Assembly (NCBI RefSeq): GCF_009695545.1
Contig: NZ_VUNS01000005.1
Coordinates: 62,001 to 126,000, forward strand
DNA from: Victivallis lenta
Lineage (GTDB): Bacteria > Verrucomicrobiota > Lentisphaeria > Victivallales > Victivallaceae
Direction: 5' to 3'
DNA length: 64,000 nucleotides
Position 1 is the stretch's first letter, and the number at the start of each line of letters is the position of its first letter. Under the pieces are notes generated by a model. It had not been told where the DNA came from. It saw only the letters and a program-made list of their open reading frames with translations, and did no database searches. Below are positions 50,322 through 60,696 of the stretch, one piece after another. A program made the translations under genes and the position numbers.

Positions 50322-51293
50322 TCAGGACTTCCGGGCTGCCGCGACGCTTTCGCGCAGGATGAGGTTATAGGGCAGCACGGTCCGGACCGGTGCTTTCTGG
50401 CCGTCGAGGCGCGCTTCGATGATGTCGGCGGTCGCGGCCGCCATCGCGGCGTAGTCCGGCGAAATCGTGGTCTGGGGCGGTACGGCGTAGTGCGAAAAGA
50501 AAGTCTGCTCCGAAGCGATCAGCGAAATGTCTTCCGGAACGCGCCGCCCGTAGAGGGAGAATGCATAAAGCATGACGATTCCGGCATTTCCGCCCGGGCA
50601 GAACAGCGCGTCTACCCCCTGCTTCAGGAGCTTTCCGGCCAGTTCGACATATTTGTCCGATCCGGGGCCGGAGAGCAGAATCAGCGAATCGTCGGCCGGA
50701 AATCCGCGGGATTTCAGCGCCCGGACGATCGCGTTCCGGCGGATATCCGTGTTGCCGGTTCCGGCCGAGCCGTGGACGATGCAGCCGATTTTCCGGCAGC
50801 CTCGCTCGTACAGATGGTCGATCGCGATGCGCATGCCCTGTTCTTCATCGGAACGGACGAAATACACTCCGGCGGGATTGCCCGTCCCCTCGCGGTCCAT
50901 GAGGACCAGCGGCACCGGGAACCGGTCCGGCCAGTCGCGGAAGTCGGCCGGTTCCGCGCCGATCGCGACAGCCGCGCAGAACTGGATGCTGTCGAGCCGT
51001 TCGCGGTTGTTGACCGGCAGAATCTCAAGCCGGAAATTGCGGCGCGGAAGTTCCTGCGTCAGCGCCATCAGGATCATGTCCACGCAGCTCTGCACCGGGT
51101 AGACCGAATGGTATGGGGTGAGGATGACCACGTTTCTCTGCCGGGTTGACAGCCGCGGGTGATAACCGTACTGCCGGGCCACGGCGAACACATGCTCACG
51201 CACCTCGGGGCGGATGCTCGGATGATGGCTGAATACCCGGGAGACGGTCGCGGTCGAGACGCCGGCCAGTTTGGCGATTTCCTGAATTTTCAT
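50322..51293 (-). CDS. LacI-family transcriptional regulator
   Basis: The 323-residue protein has the canonical LacI HTH (MKIQEIAKLAGVSTATVSRV, then FSHHPSIRPEVREHVFAVARQYGYHPR) and a sugar-binding sensor domain (NVVILTPYHSVYPVQS, PVPLVLMDREG, CRKIGCIVHGSAGTGNTDIRR, VDALFCPGGNAGIVMLYAF, PEDISLIASEQTFFSHY, PPQTTISPDYAAMAAATADII). It is likely to repress carbohydrate genes. Its natural targets may be the operon starting at 52018, which is divergent across the repeat-rich spacer, or its own gene. The ligand cannot be inferred. Confidence 0.92.
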   Translation of the reverse strand: MKIQEIAKLAGVSTATVSRVFSHHPSIRPEVREHVFAVARQYGYHPRLSTRQRNVVILTPYHSVYPVQSCVDMILMALTQELPRRNFRLEILPVNNRERLDSIQFCAAVAIGAEPADFRDWPDRFPVPLVLMDREGTGNPAGVYFVRSDEEQGMRIAIDHLYERGCRKIGCIVHGSAGTGNTDIRRNAIVRALKSRGFPADDSLILLSGPGSDKYVELAGKLLKQGVDALFCPGGNAGIVMLYAFSLYGRRVPEDISLIASEQTFFSHYAVPPQTTISPDYAAMAAATADIIEARLDGQKAPVRTVLPYNLILRESVAAARKS

Positions 51294-51535
51294 GAGCGCT
51301 TTTTCCTGTTTTATGATTCATTTACAATATATCGCGTTTTTTACGAAAACAAATCGATGTTTGCGTTTTCTTTTTCAGAAAGACGGAGATGCCGGGCTTG
51401 TCCCGGCCCTCGGGACGTGATATCTTGTTTACAGAGAAACCGGAAGGTGATGGCATATTGATATCGTCGAAATATGGGCAATGCCTCTCCGATCCGAGGT
51501 CCGTGGCCGAAGGGGGGCCGCTTTTTGTAAAACAA

Positions 51536-51588
51536 TAAACAATGCCTTTCTCGAAGGTGCGAGTACGGCGGAGCCGCACGGGACACCG
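51536..51588 (+). repeat. 53-bp repeat, first copy
   Basis: This copy runs from TAAACAATGCCTTTC to GGGACACCG and differs from the copy at 51857-51909 at two positions. It contains an inverted repeat (GTGCG...CGCAC) able to form a hairpin. It directly precedes the tandem 38-bp array. Confidence 0.85.
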
Positions 51589-51590
51589 GA

Positions 51591-51742
51591 GACGAGCACG
51601 ACACGCAGTGTCGGGCATGGTCTTTTGAGACGAGCACGACACGCAGTGTCGGGCATGGTCTTTTGAGACGAGCACGACACGCAGTGTCGGGCATGGTCTT
51701 TTGAGACGAGCACGACACGCAGTGTCGGGCACGATCTCTTCA
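51591..51742 (+). repeat. Four tandem 38-bp repeats
   Basis: Units begin GACGAGCACGACACGCAGTG at 51591, 51629, 51667 and 51705; the first three are identical and the last diverges at its end. Each unit contains CGACAC-GCA-GTGTCG, a 6-bp stem with a 3-base loop. Copies are contiguous, so it is not a CRISPR. Since 38 is not divisible by three, it is not coding repeats. Copy-number variation among strains is likely. Confidence 0.95.
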
Positions 51743-51856
51743 GAGAGCGGGGCCCCGAAAAGTATCATCCGTCGCGCAAGCGCAGTGGATGACAGGCCCG
51801 ACTTGTCCTCCGCAGCCTCGGCGAAGGAGGAAGGGGGGCAACTTTTGAGAAAAATA

Positions 51857-51909
51857 TAAACAATGCCTTTCTCGAAGGTGTGAGTACGGCGGAGCCGCAC
51901 GGAACACCG
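51857..51909 (+). repeat. 53-bp repeat, second copy
   Basis: It is the second copy of the element at 51536-51588, 321 bp downstream and in the same orientation, with two substitutions. A shared AGAGCGGGGC element follows it, as it also follows the tandem array. Confidence 0.85.
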
Positions 51910-52017
51910 TAGAGCGGGGCCCCCGAAAAGTACCCGAAGCTTTTGGGCATTCGGCCCAAAAGACCCGAGGCCCGTGGCCGAAGGGTGGCAACTTTTTGGG
52001 GAACATGGGAGGTTATC

Positions 52018-53052
52018 ATGACCGGCAAAGTGATCTGTATCCGTGAGAAGGGGAAAGCGGTGCTCGAAGAGTGCCCTGTTCCGGAGCCCGGTCCGGGCGA
52101 AGTGCTGATCGAAAACGATTACACCGTAATCAGTGCGGGGACCGAGCGCGCGAACCTGGTTGCGCTGCCGAACACCGGAACCTGTCCGGGCGGATATTCC
52201 GGCAGGGAGAAGGGCGGTTTCCCGTTCTGGCCCGGCTACTGCGGAGCGGGACGGATCGTGAAGCTCGGCAGGGAGGTCGAAGCCTTCCGGCCGGGCGACC
52301 GCGTTATCGTCAGCTGGGGCGGACACCGCACGCACTCGGTCAAAAAAGCGGCGGAGCTTGTGCGGATCGATGATGAACGGATCGATACGCTCGATGCGTC
52401 GTTCGCGCACATCGCGTCGTTCGCATTCCTCGGCGTCCGCAAACTGCGGCTCGAGGTCGGGGAGTCGGTCATGATCGCGGGGCAGGGGATTCTCGGGGTC
52501 TTTGCGCTGCAGTTCGCGGCGCTCTCCGGGGCGATTCCGCTCTTCGCGTCGGATTTCGACCCGGCGCGGCGGAAACTCGCCCTCGAACTCGGCGCCACCG
52601 CCGCATTCGTGCCGGATGAAACGCTGGCGGAGCGGGTCATGGCCGCCACCGGCGGCGCGGGCGTGAATGCCGCGGTTGAAGTGACCGGCAGCGCGAAGGC
52701 ACTGCAGCAGGCGCTCGAATACATCGCCTGGGAGGGGCGCATTTCGCTGCTCGGCTGCACACGGATTTCGGATGTGCCGATCGATTTCTACAAATATGTC
52801 CACCGCCGCGGAATCACGCTCATCGGCGCGCATACTTCGACCCGGGCGAAAACCGAGTCGGCGCCGGGACGCTGGACCGAACAGGACGATTACCGGACCT
52901 TCCTGAAACTGGTCGCGGCAGGCCGGCTGAAGATCCGTCCGCTGATCTCCGAAATCGTCTCTCCGGAACGGGCGCCGGAGGTTTACGCGCGTCTGGCGGA
53001 CGATCCGAAGGTGCCGCTCGGCATCGTGTTCGACTGGGCGAAAATCAGGTGA
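52018..53052 (+). CDS. MDR-family dehydrogenase (zinc-independent alcohol dehydrogenase-like)
   Basis: The 344-residue medium-chain dehydrogenase has the GroES-like N-terminal domain (EVLIENDYTVISAGTERANL, FPFWPGYCGAGRIV, FRPGDRVIVSW) and a Rossmann domain with nucleotide-binding IAGQGILGVFALQFA. Where zinc MDRs have the catalytic Cys (GICGTD), it reads VISAGTERA, as in the sugar-dehydrogenase-like and BchC/bi-domain oxidoreductase group, so zinc catalysis is unlikely. It probably oxidises a polyol, cyclitol or sugar hydroxyl with NAD(P). It is first in a nine-gene run; GGGAGG lies 7 bases before the ATG. Substrate unknown. Confidence 0.85.
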   Translation: MTGKVICIREKGKAVLEECPVPEPGPGEVLIENDYTVISAGTERANLVALPNTGTCPGGYSGREKGGFPFWPGYCGAGRIVKLGREVEAFRPGDRVIVSWGGHRTHSVKKAAELVRIDDERIDTLDASFAHIASFAFLGVRKLRLEVGESVMIAGQGILGVFALQFAALSGAIPLFASDFDPARRKLALELGATAAFVPDETLAERVMAATGGAGVNAAVEVTGSAKALQQALEYIAWEGRISLLGCTRISDVPIDFYKYVHRRGITLIGAHTSTRAKTESAPGRWTEQDDYRTFLKLVAAGRLKIRPLISEIVSPERAPEVYARLADDPKVPLGIVFDWAKIR

Positions 53053-53060
53053 GGCGAATC

Positions 53061-54086
53061 ATGGTGATTTCAGACGGGACGGCTTCTTCGCCGGAGGAGC
53101 GGCTGGAAAACGCCCGGCGGGAGGCTCAGACGCAGATCGCTTCCGGGCTGATCCAGGGGGCTGTCATCGCCGTCGCGGGCGGTCCCGCCGCCGCGGCGGG
53201 GCTCCAGTGCGTCCACCCTGCGGAGAAGCCGATGACGGTGCACTCCCGCTTCGACATCGCTTCGGTCGGCAAGGTGTTCACGGCTGCCTGCTGCGCTTTG
53301 CTGGCGGCGGACGGGGAGCTGGAGCCGGACGCGCCTTTCACCAGATATCTGCCGGAACATGTTCTGGGGAAAAGCTGCAATATTACGGTCCGGGATCTTG
53401 CAATGCACGCGGGCGGATTCGACAACAGCAAACCGTATGATTCGGATGACGTCGAAATTTTCAACCGGGAGCTTTTCGGCAAGCGTCCCGTCCGGCCGCG
53501 CCTGGAGGCTTTCGAGTATGCGTGTTCGAATTTCATTCTTCTCGGAAAAATAGCCGAACGGATTTCCGGGACGGATCTGGACACGCTGGCCCGGGAGCGC
53601 ATCTGGAAGCCGCTGGGGATGGACAGGACGCAGTGGCTCCCGCCGGGGGACGGCGACGATGAAGTCGAACACTGGTTCCCGAACCGTCCCGCCGGCCGGC
53701 ACAACGACGGCACCTGTTATCTGTGTCCGTTCCCGCTCGGGAGCGGCAGCTGTTTTTCAACCGCGCGGGATCTGCTTTTATTCGCGCGGGATATTCTCGA
53801 GCGCGGCCGCTTTCCCGGCGCGTATTATGACCTGATTACGAGTTGCCGGTTTGCGAAGAACGGCATCCGGCGCAGTTTCGGGTGGGATATGACGGACTCC
53901 CTGCGGCCGAGGGGGCTTTCGGCCGGAACGATTTTCCACTCCGGCTGGACGGGGCAGACGCTCTGCATCGACCCCGCAACAAAGTTCGCCGCCGTCGTTC
54001 TGACCTCGCGGACGGGGGATCATGAGGAAGCCCGCGCCGGGAGAAAGCGCATCATCGAAGCGCTGTATGGAACCCCGCCCGTTTGA
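53061..54086 (+). CDS. Serine hydrolase of the beta-lactamase/class C-like family
   Basis: The 341-residue protein shows class C beta-lactamase-like motifs: SxxK in FDIASVGKVFTAACC (Ser near residue 72), the second motif YxN position in EYACSNFILLGKIAE where the usual Asn aligns with Cys, and HxG in IFHSGWTGQTLCID. It has no signal peptide, so it is a cytoplasmic esterase, amidase or lactonase rather than an antibiotic resistance enzyme. In the operon it may cleave an ester or lactone of the pathway substrate. The ATG at 53061 has GAGG upstream; a GTG at 53049 overlaps the preceding stop. Confidence 0.85.
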   Translation: MVISDGTASSPEERLENARREAQTQIASGLIQGAVIAVAGGPAAAAGLQCVHPAEKPMTVHSRFDIASVGKVFTAACCALLAADGELEPDAPFTRYLPEHVLGKSCNITVRDLAMHAGGFDNSKPYDSDDVEIFNRELFGKRPVRPRLEAFEYACSNFILLGKIAERISGTDLDTLARERIWKPLGMDRTQWLPPGDGDDEVEHWFPNRPAGRHNDGTCYLCPFPLGSGSCFSTARDLLLFARDILERGRFPGAYYDLITSCRFAKNGIRRSFGWDMTDSLRPRGLSAGTIFHSGWTGQTLCIDPATKFAAVVLTSRTGDHEEARAGRKRIIEALYGTPPV

Positions 54087-54174
54087 GGCGCGGAATGTTT
54101 TCCGTTTCGGAGTGATCAATTACTAAGGGGATAGTATGTTAATGCCATCGAAATATTAACAATGGAGGAAATCT

Positions 54175-55188
54175 ATGAAGGAAGTCGGGAAGAATCGCCG
54201 GGTTCTGGTTCTCGGCGGCACGGGGGCGATGGGGGTCTATCTGGTGCCGGAGCTGGCGTCGCTGGGCTGCACAGTCCGCGTGGTTTCGCTGGATGACGTC
54301 GTGTCGAACGATCCGAACGTCTCCTATGTCAGGGCCGATGCGCATGACATCGGGTTCATGGAGAAGCTGCTGGCGGAGAAGTTCGACGCGATCGTCGATT
54401 TCATGATCTATTCGACGGAGGAGTTCCGCTGCCGGCACGAGCTTCTGCTGAAGAACACCGGACACTACATTTTCCTGTCGTCCTACCGCGTGTACAGCGG
54501 CGGCGTTCCGGTGACGGAAGAGACGCCGCGGCTGCTGGACGTATCGGAAGACCGGGAGTTCCTGGCGACCGAGGATTACTCCCTTTACAAAGCGCGCGAG
54601 GAGGACATCCTGCAGAACTCCGGATATGAAAACTGGACGATCGTCCGCCCGGCCATCACCTATTCGAAGTTCCGTTACCAGCTGGTCACGCTGGAGGCGC
54701 CCGTCCTGATCGCGCGGGCGCTGGCGGGACTGCCGGTCGTGCTCCCCCGCGAGGCGCTCGCCGTGCAGGGGACGATGAACTGGGCGGGAGATGTGGCCCG
54801 GATGTTCTCACGGCTGCTGTTCAATCCGGCGGCCGTGCGCGAATGCTTCACGCTGGCCACCGCCGAGCACCACGCCTGGGGCGAGATTGCGGAGTACTAC
54901 AAAGAGATCATCGGCTTGGAATATGTCGCCGCCGATACGGAAGATTACATAGGAATCATGGGCGGAAGCTGCTGGGCCCGCTACCAGCTTAATTACGACC
55001 GGATGTTCAACCGGGTCGTCGACAACTCCAAACTTCTGCGCGTGACCGGCCTGAGGCAGGAGGAACTTATGCCGCTCCGGCAGGGGCTCGAGCGGGAACT
55101 CGCCGCCCTGCCGCGGAACACCGTCTGGCCGGATGCCGGCGCGGTCTGGAAACGCATGGACGATTATCTCAAAAAACACAGGAGCTGA
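54175..55188 (+). CDS. NAD-dependent epimerase/dehydratase family protein
   Basis: The 337-residue extended SDR has the N-terminal NAD(P)-binding VLVLGGTGAMGVYLVPEL, IVDFMIY and HYIFLSSYRVYSG. The usual YxxxK is seen as YSLYKAREED. The C-terminal domain (about 180-337) is the substrate-binding part. This resembles NmrA/isoflavone-reductase-like and nucleotide-sugar epimerases. A nucleotide-sugar substrate is not required; members also act on free cyclitols or keto-sugars. GGAGG lies upstream of the ATG at 54175. A 6-bp inverted repeat (GTTAAT...ATTAAC) lies between this gene and the previous one. Confidence 0.83.
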   Translation: MKEVGKNRRVLVLGGTGAMGVYLVPELASLGCTVRVVSLDDVVSNDPNVSYVRADAHDIGFMEKLLAEKFDAIVDFMIYSTEEFRCRHELLLKNTGHYIFLSSYRVYSGGVPVTEETPRLLDVSEDREFLATEDYSLYKAREEDILQNSGYENWTIVRPAITYSKFRYQLVTLEAPVLIARALAGLPVVLPREALAVQGTMNWAGDVARMFSRLLFNPAAVRECFTLATAEHHAWGEIAEYYKEIIGLEYVAADTEDYIGIMGGSCWARYQLNYDRMFNRVVDNSKLLRVTGLRQEELMPLRQGLERELAALPRNTVWPDAGAVWKRMDDYLKKHRS

Positions 55189-55193
55189 ATGTT

Positions 55194-56216
55194 ATGGAAA
55201 AGATCAGAATCGGTCAGATCGGCATTTGCCACGAGCATGCGGCAGGCAAGATGCATACGCTGCGGCTGCTGCCGGAGGTGTTCGAGGTCGTCGGCGTCGT
55301 CGACGACCGCGGTTCGGCTGCGGCGCAGTTCCCGAGCGGCGACCTGACGCCTTATGACGGTCTCCGATGGATGAGCGAAGAGGAGCTGTTCGCCGTGCCG
55401 GGACTCCGGGCGGTCGTCATCGAGACGCCCAATCTGGAGCTGGTTCCGACGACGTTCCGCTGCCTCGAACACAATCTGCCGGTCCACATGGACAAGCCCG
55501 GCGGCGACGACCTCGCGGCATTCGACCGTCTGCGGCAGGGGTTCGAGGAGCGGAACCTGCCGTTCCAGATGGGCTATATGTTCCGCGGCAACCCGGCCAT
55601 GCAGTGGATTCTCGACGCGGCCCGGAAAGGGTGGCTCGGGGAGATCTTCGAAGTGCAGGCGAGCATGAGCCACAACTACGGCGGGGAGGAGTATCAGGCA
55701 TACATCGGCCGCCTGCCGGGCGGAATCATGTTCAATCTCGGCTGTCACCTGATCGATTTCGTCATTTCGCTGCTCGGGCGCCCGTCCGGCGTCACTCCGT
55801 TCCTGAAGTCGGCGCCGGGGGACCCTGACCGGATTCTGAACAACTGCGTGGCCGTGCTCGAATATCCGCACGCGACGGCGACGCTGCGGGCGTGCAGCCG
55901 CGAGGCCGGCGGTCTCGACCGGCGGCTGAAAGTCTGTGGAACGAAGGGTTCGGTCGATCTCTGCCCGCTCGAACGGTTCGACGGGCAGCCGCTCGAGATG
56001 AAGCTGTTTCTGGCGGAAGGCAATGACACGTTCGCTTCCGGCGCCCATACGCTTTCATTCGGTCCCGTGCGCGACCGCTATGAAACGCAGCTTCTCGAGC
56101 TGGCCCGGATGGTTTCCGGGGAGATTCCGAATCCCTGCGACCGGCGGCACGACACGCTTGTCGAAGAGGTGCTGCTCGCCGCCTCCGGCTGCATGCAATA
56201 TCAATCACGGAGATGA
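55194..56216 (+). CDS. Gfo/Idh/MocA-family oxidoreductase
   Basis: The 340-residue protein has an NAD(P)-binding Rossmann domain that starts with the atypical IGQIGICHEHAAGKMHTLRLL instead of GxGxxG, seen in a subgroup of the family. The DKPGGDDLAAFDRL block carries the Lys of the family EKP motif (E to D), and GGIMFNLGCHLIDFVI carries the conserved HxxD, with Asn replacing the usual Asp before it. The C-terminal domain is the beta-sheet substrate domain. It probably oxidises a sugar or cyclitol. The stop TGA lies inside the Shine-Dalgarno region of the next gene. Confidence 0.87.
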   Translation: MEKIRIGQIGICHEHAAGKMHTLRLLPEVFEVVGVVDDRGSAAAQFPSGDLTPYDGLRWMSEEELFAVPGLRAVVIETPNLELVPTTFRCLEHNLPVHMDKPGGDDLAAFDRLRQGFEERNLPFQMGYMFRGNPAMQWILDAARKGWLGEIFEVQASMSHNYGGEEYQAYIGRLPGGIMFNLGCHLIDFVISLLGRPSGVTPFLKSAPGDPDRILNNCVAVLEYPHATATLRACSREAGGLDRRLKVCGTKGSVDLCPLERFDGQPLEMKLFLAEGNDTFASGAHTLSFGPVRDRYETQLLELARMVSGEIPNPCDRRHDTLVEEVLLAASGCMQYQSRR

Positions 56217-56221
56217 ATGAC

Positions 56222-56998
56222 ATGAAACGAACCTTTCTGAATCAGTCCCATCCGGTCGTCACCGGAATTTTCTGCGGGCAGACTCCGGCGGAGCTGATCG
56301 CCGAAGCGCGGAACTGCGAATTCGAGGGCGCGGACGGCATTGCCGTCGAGCTGCGCGACCTGAAGGCCGAATACCGCAACGCCGAATCGCTGAAAAGCGT
56401 TGTCGACGCGGTGAACCTGCCGTTCATGTTCGTCTTTTACCGCAACGATACGCAGCAGAATCTGGACGACGACGCACGGCAGGAGGTGCTGCTCGCCGCC
56501 GCCGATGCCGGAGCCTCGGTCATCGACGTGATGGGCGACCTTTACGACCCGTCGCCGATGGAGCTCACCCGCAATCCGGCCGCCGTCGACAGACAGAAGC
56601 GGCTGATCGACCGGATTCACGCCAAAGGCGCCGACGTGGTTATTTCGTCCCATATGCAGTGTTCGCGGACGGCGGAACAGGTGCTGGAGCACCTGCGTGA
56701 AGTCGAATCGCGCGGCGCGGATATCGTGAAGATCGTGACCGCCGTCAACACCGATGAGGAACTGGCCGAGGCGTTCCGCACGACGCTGATGCTGAAACGG
56801 GAGCTCAGGACACCGTTCATCCACCTCTGCAACGGCGCTTACAGCCGCCCGCACCGTTTCATGGGGCCGGCGCTCGGCGTTTCGGTCCTGTTCGCAGTGT
56901 CGCACTACGAGCCGCGATACGGCATGGGCCAGCCGACGGTCCGCGCCTTGAAGACCGTTCTCGAAAATATGCGCTGGAACATCAACGACCTGAAATAG
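56222..56998 (+). CDS. Type I 3-dehydroquinate dehydratase homologue
   Basis: The 258-residue (beta/alpha)8 protein matches type I 3-dehydroquinate dehydratase (AroD). GIFCGQTPAELIAEA opens the barrel; GADGIAVELRDLK carries the conserved Glu of strand 2; VVISSHMQCSRTAEQVLEHL carries the catalytic-dyad His (family 'SxHDF'); and DIVKIVTAVNTDEE carries the Schiff-base Lys (family KIA). AYSRPHRFMGP and RYGMGQPTVRAL parallel the SR and PGQ substrate-binding motifs. The enzyme would eliminate water from a beta-hydroxy ketone. It is embedded in a catabolic-looking operon and away from aroE (34.2 kb), so a role other than aromatic synthesis is likely. I prefer the ATG at 56222, GGAG 9 bases upstream. 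Confidence 0.82.
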   Translation: MKRTFLNQSHPVVTGIFCGQTPAELIAEARNCEFEGADGIAVELRDLKAEYRNAESLKSVVDAVNLPFMFVFYRNDTQQNLDDDARQEVLLAAADAGASVIDVMGDLYDPSPMELTRNPAAVDRQKRLIDRIHAKGADVVISSHMQCSRTAEQVLEHLREVESRGADIVKIVTAVNTDEELAEAFRTTLMLKRELRTPFIHLCNGAYSRPHRFMGPALGVSVLFAVSHYEPRYGMGQPTVRALKTVLENMRWNINDLK

Positions 56999-57013
56999 CG
57001 AAAGGAGCCGCCC

Positions 57014-57763
57014 ATGGAAAAACGTCTGATCGGAAAGGTCGCCCTCGTCACCGGTTCGAGCGGGGTCATCGGCCCCGCGATCGTGCGCCGCCTTGCGGCG
57101 GAGGGAGCGGTCGTGGCAGCGACCGACCGTTCGCTTGAAACGGCGCGGGCGGTTGCGGATGAAGCGGCTGCATCGGGTGGGGAGGTCCGGGCGTTCGCGC
57201 TCGACGTGACCGATGCGGCGCAGGTCGATTCTGCGTTCGCCGCAGTGGAGGCCGGACTCGGCCCTGTCGATATTCTGGTGAACAACGCCGGTTTCGTCCG
57301 GAAAAGCTCCGACCCGTTCCAGCTGGTGGAAGAGGAGCTCTGGAGCCGGATTCTCGATGTGAACCTCGGCGGCGTCATCCGCTGCTGCCGCCGGGTGCTC
57401 GGCGGAATGATCGCGCGCAGATACGGCAAAATCATCAATCTCGGCTCGATCGCCGGCGTCTCCGGGCTGCCGGGGTGGGCGGATTACGCAGCCTCCAAAG
57501 GCGGCGTAATCGCCTTCAGCAAGACGATTGCAATGGAGGCCGGGGCGCATGGAGTCACCGTCAACTGCGTTTCGCCGGGCATGATCGGCGTGGAGTCGGG
57601 GGAGAACCGGGGAACCTGGCTGGGACGCTCCGGCACCGGGGAAGATGTTGCCGGGGTGATCGCTTTTCTGGCCTCTCCCGAAGCGGATTACATCACCGGC
57701 TGCAATTATATGGTGGACGGCGGCCGGGTGGTCGGTCCGAAAAACGCTTCATGGAATGAATGA
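57014..57763 (+). CDS. Short-chain dehydrogenase/reductase (first of two)
   Basis: The 249-residue classical SDR has VALVTGSSGVIGPAIVRRL (NAD-binding), ILVNNAGFVRK (NNAG), INLGSIAGVSG (active-site Ser), and YAASKGGVIAFSKTIAME (Tyr/Lys). The C-terminus GCNYMVDGGRVVGP is typical. The substrate is unknown; polyols, keto-acids and cyclitols are common for this group. It is 15 bases after the dehydratase and overlaps or abuts the next SDR. Confidence 0.92.
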   Translation: MEKRLIGKVALVTGSSGVIGPAIVRRLAAEGAVVAATDRSLETARAVADEAAASGGEVRAFALDVTDAAQVDSAFAAVEAGLGPVDILVNNAGFVRKSSDPFQLVEEELWSRILDVNLGGVIRCCRRVLGGMIARRYGKIINLGSIAGVSGLPGWADYAASKGGVIAFSKTIAMEAGAHGVTVNCVSPGMIGVESGENRGTWLGRSGTGEDVAGVIAFLASPEADYITGCNYMVDGGRVVGPKNASWNE

Positions 57764-57788
57764 CCGGAAAATGGAAAGTGCTGGAAAT

Positions 57789-58541
57789 ATGGAATTTAAA
57801 GGGAAAACCGCGATTGTGACCGGCGCCGCTTCGGGGATGGGGCTGCTTTCCGCCCGGAAGCTGGCCGAAGGCGGCGCGAGCGTCGTGCTCTGCGACGTGA
57901 ACGCCGAGCGGGTCGAAGCCGCGGCGGAGGAGATCCGCCGGAACGGCGGAAAAGCCTTCGCCGTCAAAGTGGATGTCCGCCGTTACGAGGAGGTTGAGGC
58001 CGCCGCGAAGTTCACGGTGGAGAGCTGCGGGCGGATCGATATCCTCATCAACTGCGCGGGCGGTTACTGCGGGCGGATCTTCGGCCGTTCCGAGAGTTTC
58101 AAGGATCTGCCGGTCGAGGTCCTCGAGTGGGGGGCCGACGTCAATTTCAAGGGGCCGATCTGGTTCTGCCGCGCCGTGTTCAACACGATGGCGGAGCAGA
58201 AGGGCGGCGTCATCATCAACCTCGGTTCGATCGACGGGGTGACCGGCGGGGCCGTCGTCTACGGCGCGGCCAAGGCGAGCATGATCGGGCTGACGAAGTC
58301 GCTGGCGATTCTCGGCGCGCCGTACAATATCCGCGCCTGCTGCGTGTCGCCCGGCCCGGTCCTGACCCGCCCGGCGATGGCCGGCATGGCGACTTTGCTG
58401 AAGCGCGCCGCCGAGCCGGCCGAGGTGGTGGATCTGATCCTCTACCTCTGTTCGGAGAAGGCCGCCTTCATCACCGGCAGCAACTATCTGATTGACGGCG
58501 GCCGCGCCTGCGGCGGAGCCTGCTATATTGAAAAGGAGTGA
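57789..58541 (+). CDS. Short-chain dehydrogenase/reductase (second of two)
   Basis: The 250-residue classical SDR carries AIVTGAASGMGLLSARKLAE, ILINCAGGYCGR (NAG-like with Cys), INLGSIDGVTGG and YGAAKASMIGLTKSLA (Tyr/Lys). It shares the family plan with the preceding SDR but is clearly divergent from it, so this is not a recent duplication. The ATG at 57789 starts the domain (MEFKGKTAIVTG); an ATG at 57756 overlapping the previous stop is an alternative. Substrate unknown. Confidence 0.92.
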   Translation: MEFKGKTAIVTGAASGMGLLSARKLAEGGASVVLCDVNAERVEAAAEEIRRNGGKAFAVKVDVRRYEEVEAAAKFTVESCGRIDILINCAGGYCGRIFGRSESFKDLPVEVLEWGADVNFKGPIWFCRAVFNTMAEQKGGVIINLGSIDGVTGGAVVYGAAKASMIGLTKSLAILGAPYNIRACCVSPGPVLTRPAMAGMATLLKRAAEPAEVVDLILYLCSEKAAFITGSNYLIDGGRACGGACYIEKE

Positions 58542-58547
58542 GTTTTT

Positions 58548-59504
58548 ATGAATGCGATGCTGATTGACGCCGGCGGCCGCCTGGCGAAAACCGTTGTCCC
58601 GGACCCTGTCCGCAGGGAGGGGGAAGTTCTGATCGAGGTCCATGCCGCCGCCGTGAACCGCGCCGACCTGATGCAGTGCGACGGCAATTATCCGCCGCCG
58701 CCGGGCTGGCCGGAGTGGCCCGGGCTCGAGGTCGCCGGGGTTGTGCTTGAGACGCCGGATTCCTCGCGCTTCAGGCCCGGCGACCGGGTCTGCGCGTTGC
58801 TCGGCGGGGGAGGGTATGCCGAAAAGATCGCCGTTCCGGAGGGGATGGTTCTGCCGGCTCCGGACGGGCTCTCGATGGAAGAGGCGGCGGCCGTCCCCGA
58901 AGTGTTTGCGACCTCCTATCTTAATTTCGTGATTGAAGCCGGGATGAAGGCCGGGGATACGGTGTTCGTTCAGGCCGGGGCGAGCGGGCTCGGCATCGCC
59001 GCGATCCAGCTTGCGAAGTGCGCCGGATGCCAAGTCGTCACTACGGTCGGCACGCCGGAGAAGGCCGCTTTCGTCCGTGCGCTCGGGGCCGATGTCGTCG
59101 TGAATCACCGGACGGACGACCTCGGCGCGGCGCTCGATGCGAACCCGCCCGACATTGTGCTCGACTGCGTCGGCGGCTCGGAGTTCGGGGCGCTTTTCAC
59201 GAAAATGGCGATGCGCGGACGCTGGATTCAGATTGCGGCGCTCGGCGGCGCCCGTTCGGAGATTTCGCTCGATACGGTGTTCCGCAAGAATCTCCGGCTG
59301 ATCGGCAGCACGCTGCGGAGCCGCACGAACGAGATGAAACGTGAAGTGCTGCGTTCCCTGGAGCGCGAGTACTGGCCGAAGTTCGCGTCCGGCGCGATCC
59401 GTCCGGTCATTTTCCGCGTTCTGCCGCTCGAAGAGGCGGCCGGGGCGCACGGAATCCTGCGCCGCCGCGAGAACATCGGCAAGGTGGTTCTTCGCGTCCG
59501 CTGA
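58548..59504 (+). CDS. Quinone oxidoreductase-like MDR (zeta-crystallin family)
   Basis: The 318-residue zinc-free MDR shows IEVHAAAVNRADLMQCDGNYPPP (typical NRxDxxxxxGxYP of quinone oxidoreductase/PIG3-like members), PGLEVAGVVLE, VCALLGGGGYAEK and FVQAGASGLGIAAIQLAK (NADPH-binding GASGxxG). The family reduces quinones or enones with NADPH. In a pathway with a dehydratase forming an enone, it could reduce the double bond; that is inference. It ends 139 bases before the next gene. Confidence 0.9.
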   Translation: MNAMLIDAGGRLAKTVVPDPVRREGEVLIEVHAAAVNRADLMQCDGNYPPPPGWPEWPGLEVAGVVLETPDSSRFRPGDRVCALLGGGGYAEKIAVPEGMVLPAPDGLSMEEAAAVPEVFATSYLNFVIEAGMKAGDTVFVQAGASGLGIAAIQLAKCAGCQVVTTVGTPEKAAFVRALGADVVVNHRTDDLGAALDANPPDIVLDCVGGSEFGALFTKMAMRGRWIQIAALGGARSEISLDTVFRKNLRLIGSTLRSRTNEMKREVLRSLEREYWPKFASGAIRPVIFRVLPLEEAAGAHGILRRRENIGKVVLRVR

Positions 59505-59599
59505 GTTCCGGCAGATCGATTTTTCGGGATGTTTTGCCGAAGAGAGGATTGCATTTTCCTTTTTTGCGATTACACTAAAAGGATGACAATTTTTTACGT

Positions 59600-59614
59600 C
59601 TTCCCATAGGGAAG
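59600..59614 (+). terminator. Short hairpin before the last operon gene
   Basis: CTTCCC-ATA-GGGAAG forms a 6-bp stem between the quinone oxidoreductase and the second Gfo/Idh gene. The T-run lies upstream of it, so it may be an attenuator or incidental. The 139-bp gap suggests the last gene may also be expressed separately. Confidence 0.3.
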
Positions 59615-59643
59615 CGGGCAACTATCTGGAAAGACATGGGATT

Positions 59644-60696
59644 ATGAGCGGAAAAGTGATCGGCGGAGCCGTGATCGGCTACGGCGGGATGGGGGGATTC
59701 CATTCCGAAAAGATGCAGAGTGTGGACGGAGTCGAGCTGCTCGGCGTGTACGACATCGACCCCGAACGGAACGAACTGGCGGAGAGCAGGGGCATCCATG
59801 CTTATCCGTCGCGCGAGGCGCTGCTGGCCGATCCGAAGATCGGGCTCGTGACGGTTGCGACGCCGAACGACGTTCACAGGGAGATCGTGATCGCCGCGCT
59901 CGCGGCCGGCAAGAACGTGATCTGCGAGAAGCCGGTCGCGATGGACAGCGCGGAGCTTGAGGAGATGATCGCCGCCGCGAACAGATACGGCCGGCTTTTC
60001 ACGGTTCACCAGAACCGCCGCTGGGACGAGGATTATCTGACCATGCGGAAGATCGTCGAGGCGGGCGAGCTCGGCAATGCGTACCGCATCGAGTCGCGCG
60101 TGCACGGTTCGCGCGGCATTCCGGCCGGCTGGCGCGAAGAGAAGGCGCACGGCGGCGGCATGGTGCTCGACTGGGGCGTGCATCTGCTCGACCAGATGCT
60201 GACCATGATGGGGGACCGCAAGCTGCTTTCGGTCTATGCCACGATGACCAATATCACGAATGACGAGTGCGACGACGGCTTCACCGCGCAGGTGAAGTTC
60301 GAGAACGGTCCGGAGTGGATCGTCGAAGTCGGCACCTGCAACTATATCGAAATGCCGCGCTGGTACGCCTTCGGCGACAGCGGTTCTCTGATCATCCGCA
60401 ACTGGGATTGCGACGGCGAGATCGTGAAGATCTACAACCGCGGCGAGGACGATGTTCCGCCGGTGCTGGCCGGCGCCGGCCTGACCCGGACCATGGCGCC
60501 GCGCAATGAGCAGACCGTCGAGAAGTTCCCGATTGAAAGGGTCAAGTCGGACTGGGCCGAATATTACAGGAACGTGATCGCGACCCTGAACGGAAAAGCG
60601 GAGATCGTGGTTACCCACGACCAGCTCCGCCGTTCGATGAAGCTGATCGAAGCGGTCTTTGAATCTGCCCGGAAGAACGAAGTCGTCAAGTTCTGA
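59644..60696 (+). CDS. Gfo/Idh/MocA-family oxidoreductase (second)
   Basis: The 350-residue protein has GGAVIGYGGMGGFHSEKMQ (NAD-binding GxGxxG), VICEKPVAMDSAELEEM (EKP motif), and GGGMVLDWGVHLLDQM (conserved Asp and His), all canonical. It therefore keeps the usual catalytic residues, unlike the first Gfo/Idh gene of the run. It likely oxidises or reduces a sugar or cyclitol hydroxyl. It may belong to the same operon, with a 139-bp gap before it. Confidence 0.92.
   Translation: MSGKVIGGAVIGYGGMGGFHSEKMQSVDGVELLGVYDIDPERNELAESRGIHAYPSREALLADPKIGLVTVATPNDVHREIVIAALAAGKNVICEKPVAMDSAELEEMIAAANRYGRLFTVHQNRRWDEDYLTMRKIVEAGELGNAYRIESRVHGSRGIPAGWREEKAHGGGMVLDWGVHLLDQMLTMMGDRKLLSVYATMTNITNDECDDGFTAQVKFENGPEWIVEVGTCNYIEMPRWYAFGDSGSLIIRNWDCDGEIVKIYNRGEDDVPPVLAGAGLTRTMAPRNEQTVEKFPIERVKSDWAEYYRNVIATLNGKAEIVVTHDQLRRSMKLIEAVFESARKNEVVKF

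Follow-up and report, generated by a model that had tools for sequence, protein, structure and literature searches.

The patchwork of repeats at positions 51441–52017, directly ahead of a gene, raises the question of whether it is a product of its own locus or one copy of an element present elsewhere. It lies in a window of 64,000 nt, the whole stretch of DNA analyzed, from Victivallis lenta. The patchwork is intergenic and is 577 nt in length, with a LacI gene on one side and a nine-ORF run on the other. An earlier sequence-only reading placed the array before a nine-gene run and divergently from a LacI gene, and both neighbors are confirmed. The patchwork is probably a copy of a mobile element, modular and non-autonomous, whose hairpin core shows covariation; in Victivallis this element would insert at Shine-Dalgarno (SD) sequences and leave the gene with an SD that can be used.

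The modules of the window copy are listed in Table 1. This copy is composite, with a decayed D module and a tail remnant, followed by N-H1-U4-G-Ia and then by N-H1-G-Ib-T. The longest exact repeat within 51441–52017 is 105 nt and 200 dinucleotide shuffles give at most 12 nt, which excludes chance as the source of the repeats. Four head-to-tail 38-bp units (U) are present as the sequence-only reading described, each with a CGACAC-GCA-GTGTCG hairpin, but their coordinates are 51589–51740 and not 51591–51742. Tandem Repeats Finder places the array at 51589–51731 (3.8 copies, 100% matches, score 286). Units 1–3 are identical and unit 4 deviates close to the 3' end. The 53-bp copies at 51536 and 51857 were found again with their two mismatches (by eye), and the match can be prolonged one base leftwards. 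The segment AGAGCGGGGC..GAAAAGTA is likewise present twice, at 51744 and 51911. Three GTGGCCGAAGGG-like elements had also been proposed; the exact sequence is found at 51503 and 51974, and the third is presumably the end of module Ia. The D segment ATGGCATATTGATATCGTCG is a decayed form of a hairpin whose intact form is known from other copies, and the remnant of Ib and T may be the leftover of an older copy. The composite junction looks alike in five other loci (L002, L005, L006, L007 and L008), and a piece of module Ia is found again in many relatives.

Table 1. Features of the patchwork and its two neighbors, in window coordinates
Feature	Position	Strand	Description
LacI gene	50322–51293	-	divergent from nine-ORF run
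D module, degenerate here	51444–51475	+	AAGGTG (SD-like left flank), then ATGGCATATTGATATCGTCG
Remnant of inner module Ib and tail T	51491–51530	+	GAGGTCCGTGGCCGAAGGGGGGCCGCTTTTT
N linker, first copy	51535–51553	+	ATAAACAATGCCTTTCTCG
H1 hairpin, first copy	51550–51588	+	sequence comparison and fold
Four tandem 38-bp U units	51589–51740	+	hairpin CGACAC-GCA-GTGTCG in each
G strand, first copy	51744–51764	+	AGAGCGGGGCCCCGAAAAGTA; 5' arm of closing stem
Inner module Ia	51765–51834	+	70 nt, contains TCCTCCGCAGCCTCGGCGAAGGAGGA
Composite junction	51836–51874	+	truncated tail fused to second N linker
Core domain H1+G+Ib+T	51869–52003	+	covariance model R1, 147.2 bits (this copy is among the sequences from which the model was built)
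Second G strand	51911–51932	+	CCCCGAAAAGT, pairs with T-tail ACTTTTTGGGG
Inner module Ib	51933–51984	+	variable hairpin, then CCC-GA-GGCC-CGT-GGCC-GAA-GGG
T tail	51987–52005	+	GGCAACTTTTTGGGGAACA, including ACTTTTTGGGG
GGAG Shine-Dalgarno	52008–52011	+	immediately 3' of element, 6 nt ahead of ATG
Zinc-type dehydrogenase gene	52018–53052	+	first of nine ORFs; host gene, outside element
Nine-ORF run	52018–60696	+	first product zinc-type dehydrogenase

The sequence-only reading proposed a dispersed intergenic repeat family, and named a genome with no further copies, together with no variation among strains, as the finding that would point to a local product. Copies are found, so the local-only reading fails. 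A search of the Victivallis genome with 51441–52017 reveals at least 63 matching pieces (best 40 of 52 candidates scored). There are 31 copies with a 3' end from the sequence search, and a covariance-model search (best 150 of 3,186 candidates) adds another, giving 32 examined copies; there may be further decayed ones. The counts leave out fragments at contig starts without a 3' end (L012, L014), a partial inner-module match (L048), 12-mer matches in coding sequence (L035, L036, L042) and overlapping duplicates (L013, L024, L026, L028, L031–L034, L037, L038, L040). Also left out are six places with 21 bp in common with the array region (L049–L054, on contigs C25, C24, C19, C12, C6 and C4). These represent an apparent multi-copy insertion-sequence end, TTCGCTTTTTAGGACAGCTG...TTAGGACAGGTGTG, which is at a contig end in four of the six; the common 21 bp are probably due to chance.

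The order of modules is constant: D, N, H1, U x n, G, Ia or Ib, T, 2–7 nt, SD and start codon. Single modules are sometimes absent, with the order kept. In the family the D module is the hairpin GATGGTAT-GTTA-ATACCATC and T is GGCAACTTTTTGGGGAACA. The 3' end consists of a closed domain with one of the two inner modules, followed by GGGGAACA, GGAG and ATG. The number of U units varies from 0 to 6 per copy, and is perhaps greater where contigs end within arrays, as at C7/C27 and C44/C50. The family has the fixed end modules and variable tandem middle module of a BOX-type repeat.

Secondary structure analysis of the core (about 128 positions, 123–135 nt in the copies used) shows H1, a long closing stem formed by CCCCGAAAAGT and ACTTTTTGGGG, a variable hairpin and a GA-flanked hairpin. 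The alignment has 24 cores from seven genomes, eight of them from the Victivallis genome itself and five from genome G007 (four of these close copies). The cores were aligned without reference to structure and the fold was afterwards derived from the same alignment. From 34 pattern matches, nine were dropped (one on the wrong strand, the others of Ia type or with inserts), and 24 of the 25 left were aligned. Under the consensus fold 96.4% of cells pair, compared with 85.8 in shuffles. Two-sided changes occur in 18 of 37 pairs (12.3 in shuffles), and two-sided cells number 98 (shuffle mean 28.5), a count inflated by kinship among the alignment rows. None of these three values is reached in 500 shuffles, and when the partner is slid by 1–3 columns the two-sided cells fall to 5–23. 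The number of pair types is unexceptional and is reached by 95 of 500 shuffles. The unpaired bases of the core include invariant ones.

Covariation alone does not tell RNA from single-stranded DNA. On the sense strand the paired columns of the alignment (A1) contain 28 G-T cells, 16 of them in one column pair, and nine A-C cells; an invariant A-C at columns 18/34 is G-T on the opposite strand. An Rfam scan of the window gives a tRNA at 2621–2707 as the sole match. A scan of 23 fetched loci (E<=1) yields rRNA, tRNA and weak matches far under the cut-offs, with no family for the element. Acido-Lenti-1 RNA (RF01687), a structured RNA reported from Lentisphaerae in the portion of the source consulted (PMC2864571), is absent from this second scan. 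In a divergent subfamily (L142–L159, genomes of genus g15), inspection by eye suggests a possible pseudoknot between the loop TCTCCC and a GGGAGA a short way downstream.

The sequence-only reading also suggested a mobile unit, and a comparison between species bears this out, as homologous loci in sister genomes are empty. Six occupied genes were compared (five from the Victivallis genome, one from G007) with homologous loci found by protein search in same-genus genomes; the loci are the best matches, chosen irrespective of synteny. Of 38 fetched loci, 34 were tested and the weaker matches L195–L197 and L207 were left out. Model R1 matches none of the 34 at E<=0.01 (best E = 0.1). The occupied alleles range from E = 1e-26 to 0.03, with five of six at E<=0.01 and the sixth at 0.03. 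Because some Ia-type copies score poorly with R1, a missing match alone is no proof of absence; the upstream sequences, viewed in 33 of the 34 loci (all except L216), contain no element. The gene behind the window copy was compared likewise: none of its 13 homologous loci has an R1 match, and three of these (L236, L237, L243) apparently have the same divergent LacI start as the window (by eye). The element is dispersed, and its site differs between genomes, as in a MITE.

At ilvD the SD is the point of insertion. Two empty alleles are homologous up to AAGGAGA, after which the occupied allele has the insert, then AGGAGA, a short spacer and ATG. AGGAGA is thus found on both sides of the insert and is single in the two empty alleles. 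Two of three alignments end at the SD; the third allele (L199) is more divergent and failed to align. The same insertion point is suggested by copies beginning at another copy's SD: L007 begins directly after CAGGAG of an apparent older tail, and in a triple tandem copy in G007 the second and third copies each begin directly after the preceding AGGAG, a pattern that tandem duplication could equally produce. The left and right SD sequences are unlike in many copies, and a target-site duplication is therefore putative. Flank words of at least 8 are shared in 24% of 90 copies compared with 5.5% of 2,000 mismatched pairs, but tandem copies are the chief source of the long words, and flank comparison was dropped as evidence for such a duplication. 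One copy ahead of a baseplate-J gene (L103:950–1073, minus strand) is flanked by a 19-bp direct repeat, GAGGAGATTTATATATGAT, which includes the SD and start codon; this is a single case that did not generalize.

The position of the copies in the Victivallis genome is uniform. All 32 examined copies are in the sense orientation just ahead of a start codon and none is antisense or at the 3' end of a gene. In all 31 copies from the sequence search, a same-strand ORF of at least 60 codons begins 18–49 nt from the first base of T, and in 19 of the 31 the distance to the start codon is 30–33 nt. The 32nd copy precedes an ORF of 441 codons. Most copies have an SD-like sequence to the left and GGAG to the right. 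In 19 of the 23 copies with a placeable left end (15 of 18 in an earlier count), the left flank has at least 5 of the 6 letters of AAGGAG, compared with 1.0% of 1,584 control positions; the 23 flanks come from related copies and are not 23 independent events, and would lose independence altogether if AAGGAG is part of the element itself. The left SD is poor in L008, L019, L046 and the copy on C28. The downstream genes are unrelated and encode ThiC, IlvD, a terminase, a dehydrogenase and, as judged by eye, prepilin-like, ferredoxin-like and other products. A prophage-like copy (L041) precedes a large terminase gene, and L039 precedes a gene whose start nearly equals that of the L041 gene. Ribosome-binding sites are an unusual location for a small folded repeat.

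Among 137 genomes from the order, 36 have a match to model R1 (E<=0.001), and 34 of the 36 belong to the same family as the window; this survey used strict filters that miss weak matches. A DNA search (E<=0.01) gives matches in 40 of 81 genomes, many by a short piece of Ia only. A search of the genome collection with an exact pattern identified Victivallis vadensis DSM 14823 and an uncultured Victivallis as named carriers, and a second exact pattern is found in two viral contigs in IMG/VR. Two queries, one a composite peptide, gave no match in 50,697 phage records. In the relatives the copies are intergenic, in both orientations, and several are beside phage structural genes. Context was scored by simple ORF rules for 94 hand-picked copies, drawn from 143 model matches plus L104 from a separate search. 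The copies in relatives and on viral contigs number 85. A sense position at a start is found for 21 and an end at an antisense stop for 17, leaving 47 with neither; 8.2% and 6.4% of 3,000 random positions fall in the first two classes. The SD position is therefore at most a trait of some lineages.

Several individual copies have other settings. Those in G026 and G029 precede tail-fiber and baseplate-J genes, and the gene downstream of the G003 copy is without any family match. One copy lies between the 16S rRNA and a tRNA gene in the rRNA operon of G008 (L098:1001–1118). In G007, copies at L088–L090 and L189 are within a longer multi-hairpin repeat, GGGATTTCGCC...GGGCACTCCCTGCGCC, apparently 3' of genes. 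In an IMG/VR contig (L165:162–1544, minus strand) the element is in frame between a start codon and a large terminase, which could have an N-terminal peptide encoded by the element. Coding functions were rejected for the family. An upstream ORF in the D module has an ATG that is unconserved among copies, and a coding insertion, i.e., an open frame through the element, is present in many copies but has stops in others, as seen by eye, so that conservation at the protein level is not upheld. A scan of 51290–52030 finds one promoter-like site (0.3 in shuffles) and one terminator-like site (1.1 in shuffles), both weak.

Local slippage as the sole origin of the patchwork would account for the 38-bp array. 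Over the first 34 nt, U units are 98.5% alike within arrays (64 pairs) and 94.3% between arrays (797 pairs), in 11 arrays that exclude L016 and single or partial units and in which L009/L014 and L010/L012 may each be two halves of one locus. The array therefore seems to change length after insertion. (The loop is TGC in all four units of L002:1555–1706, as if inverted; it is GCA or ACA in the other ten arrays.) Slippage does not account for the other modules at 32 examined places in the genome or for the core in relatives across the order; as an explanation of the whole element it is refuted and has next to no probability. An alternative is a neutral intergenic repeat that inserts at random, with the leader position left by selection against harmful insertions. 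The many kinds of intergenic site and both orientations found in relatives agree with this. It is nevertheless unlikely, as no copy in the Victivallis genome is antisense or at a gene 3' end, and neither the SD-like left junction nor the junction at ilvD is explained by selection alone.

A cis-regulatory RNA, i.e., a riboswitch-like leader or a translational switch kept for control of the downstream genes, would fit the 5' leader position throughout the Victivallis genome and the covarying structure with its invariant unpaired bases. By eye, the closing stem of some phage copies has a GGGG that would serve as the SD. We consider this explanation improbable, however, in view of the empty homologous loci (0/34 and 0/13), the unrelated downstream genes, and the copies in relatives that are antisense or in an rRNA operon spacer. 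Predicted accessibility of the SD also argues against it. The mean for 18 loci is 0.52 with the element and 0.48 without it at the SD, and 0.43 and 0.51, respectively, at the start codon, slightly lower with the element. The plain reading of these values is that the element is tolerated, with translation remaining possible.

The modular mobile element that we favor resembles several known repeats in part. REP units are short palindromes of 20–40 nt, with a RAYT gene expected in the genome. The sequence-only reading had termed the repeats REP/MITE-like; the dispersed and mobile character holds, but the element is far longer than a REP unit (core 123–135 nt) and is modular, and the terminal inverted repeats of a MITE are not found, with none joining both ends in four copies scanned (for the longest copy, among the 5 longest of 23 pairs). 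Single-strand elements of the IS200/IS605 and REP/RAYT types have a hairpin near the left end, need no inverted ends and insert strand-specifically beside a short target. The Victivallis element is similar in its left-end hairpin, apparent strand-specific short target and lack of inverted ends; a Y1 transposase is putative here.

The closest likeness in architecture is to composite repeats. In the portion of the source consulted, BOX elements of Streptococcus pneumoniae are described as boxA-boxB(n)-boxC, and a table places 70 upstream of one or more genes and 16 in convergent intergenic regions (PMC3049150). Fixed end modules, a variable middle array, a predicted folded RNA and clustered or nested copies are common to both, a resemblance by description in which the boxA, boxB and boxC sequences had no part. 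In contrast to the 32 of 32 sense copies before start codons in Victivallis, BOX elements are not so confined according to the same portion, and the host phylum differs (PMC3049150). BrickBuilt of Porphyromonas gingivalis is described, in the excerpt consulted, as an intergenic MITE with a 23-nt minisatellite and 19 forms in one genome (PMC4596501). Leader and tail units enclose a tandem minisatellite in BrickBuilt as well, but in that excerpt it has small inverted-repeat ends and is 49–591 nt from the nearest coding sequences, whereas in Victivallis no such ends are found in four copies and the element directly abuts the SD (PMC4596501). ERIC, Correia/NEMIS, RUP, RPE and other MITEs, as far as the consulted parts of the sources describe them, are similar in length (100–200 bp), folded transcripts and mostly intergenic location, and some form in-frame gene fusions, as in L165 (PMC2229807, PMC10969869). 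Several have terminal inverted repeats and TA-containing ends, which are not found in the Victivallis element (same parts of PMC2229807 and PMC10969869); the modular build and SD position belong to the latter. The Victivallis element behaves as a BOX-type composite repeat or a BrickBuilt MITE, and its SD position is what distinguishes it. In the literature titles and abstracts covered, which are a partial set, none deals with such a repeat in Victivallis or with SD-targeted insertion.

The element may spread as follows. A putative trans-acting enzyme would move it, with a preference for an SD on the sense strand. Insertion would duplicate the SD or supply a new one, so that the gene would remain translatable and the element would become its 5' leader. 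Slippage or unequal exchange may afterwards lengthen or shorten the 38-bp array locally. Kindred elements of the family are intergenic, and some are in phage late operons. More tentatively, the SD itself may be the target, read on the sense strand, whether by an HUH-type enzyme acting on single-stranded DNA or via mRNA, with a replacement SD carried at the 3' end.

If such SD targeting is true, the element makes itself the 5' leader of whichever gene receives it, and translation suffers little. By landing on ribosome-binding sites in a fixed orientation, such an element would place folded leaders throughout the genome without stopping genes. New post-transcriptional control may readily arise by this route, and strand-specific choice of targets could be studied in a natural system. 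The core, with its covariation, is a candidate new family of RNA, or of single-strand DNA, that this bacterial family has in common with some phages.
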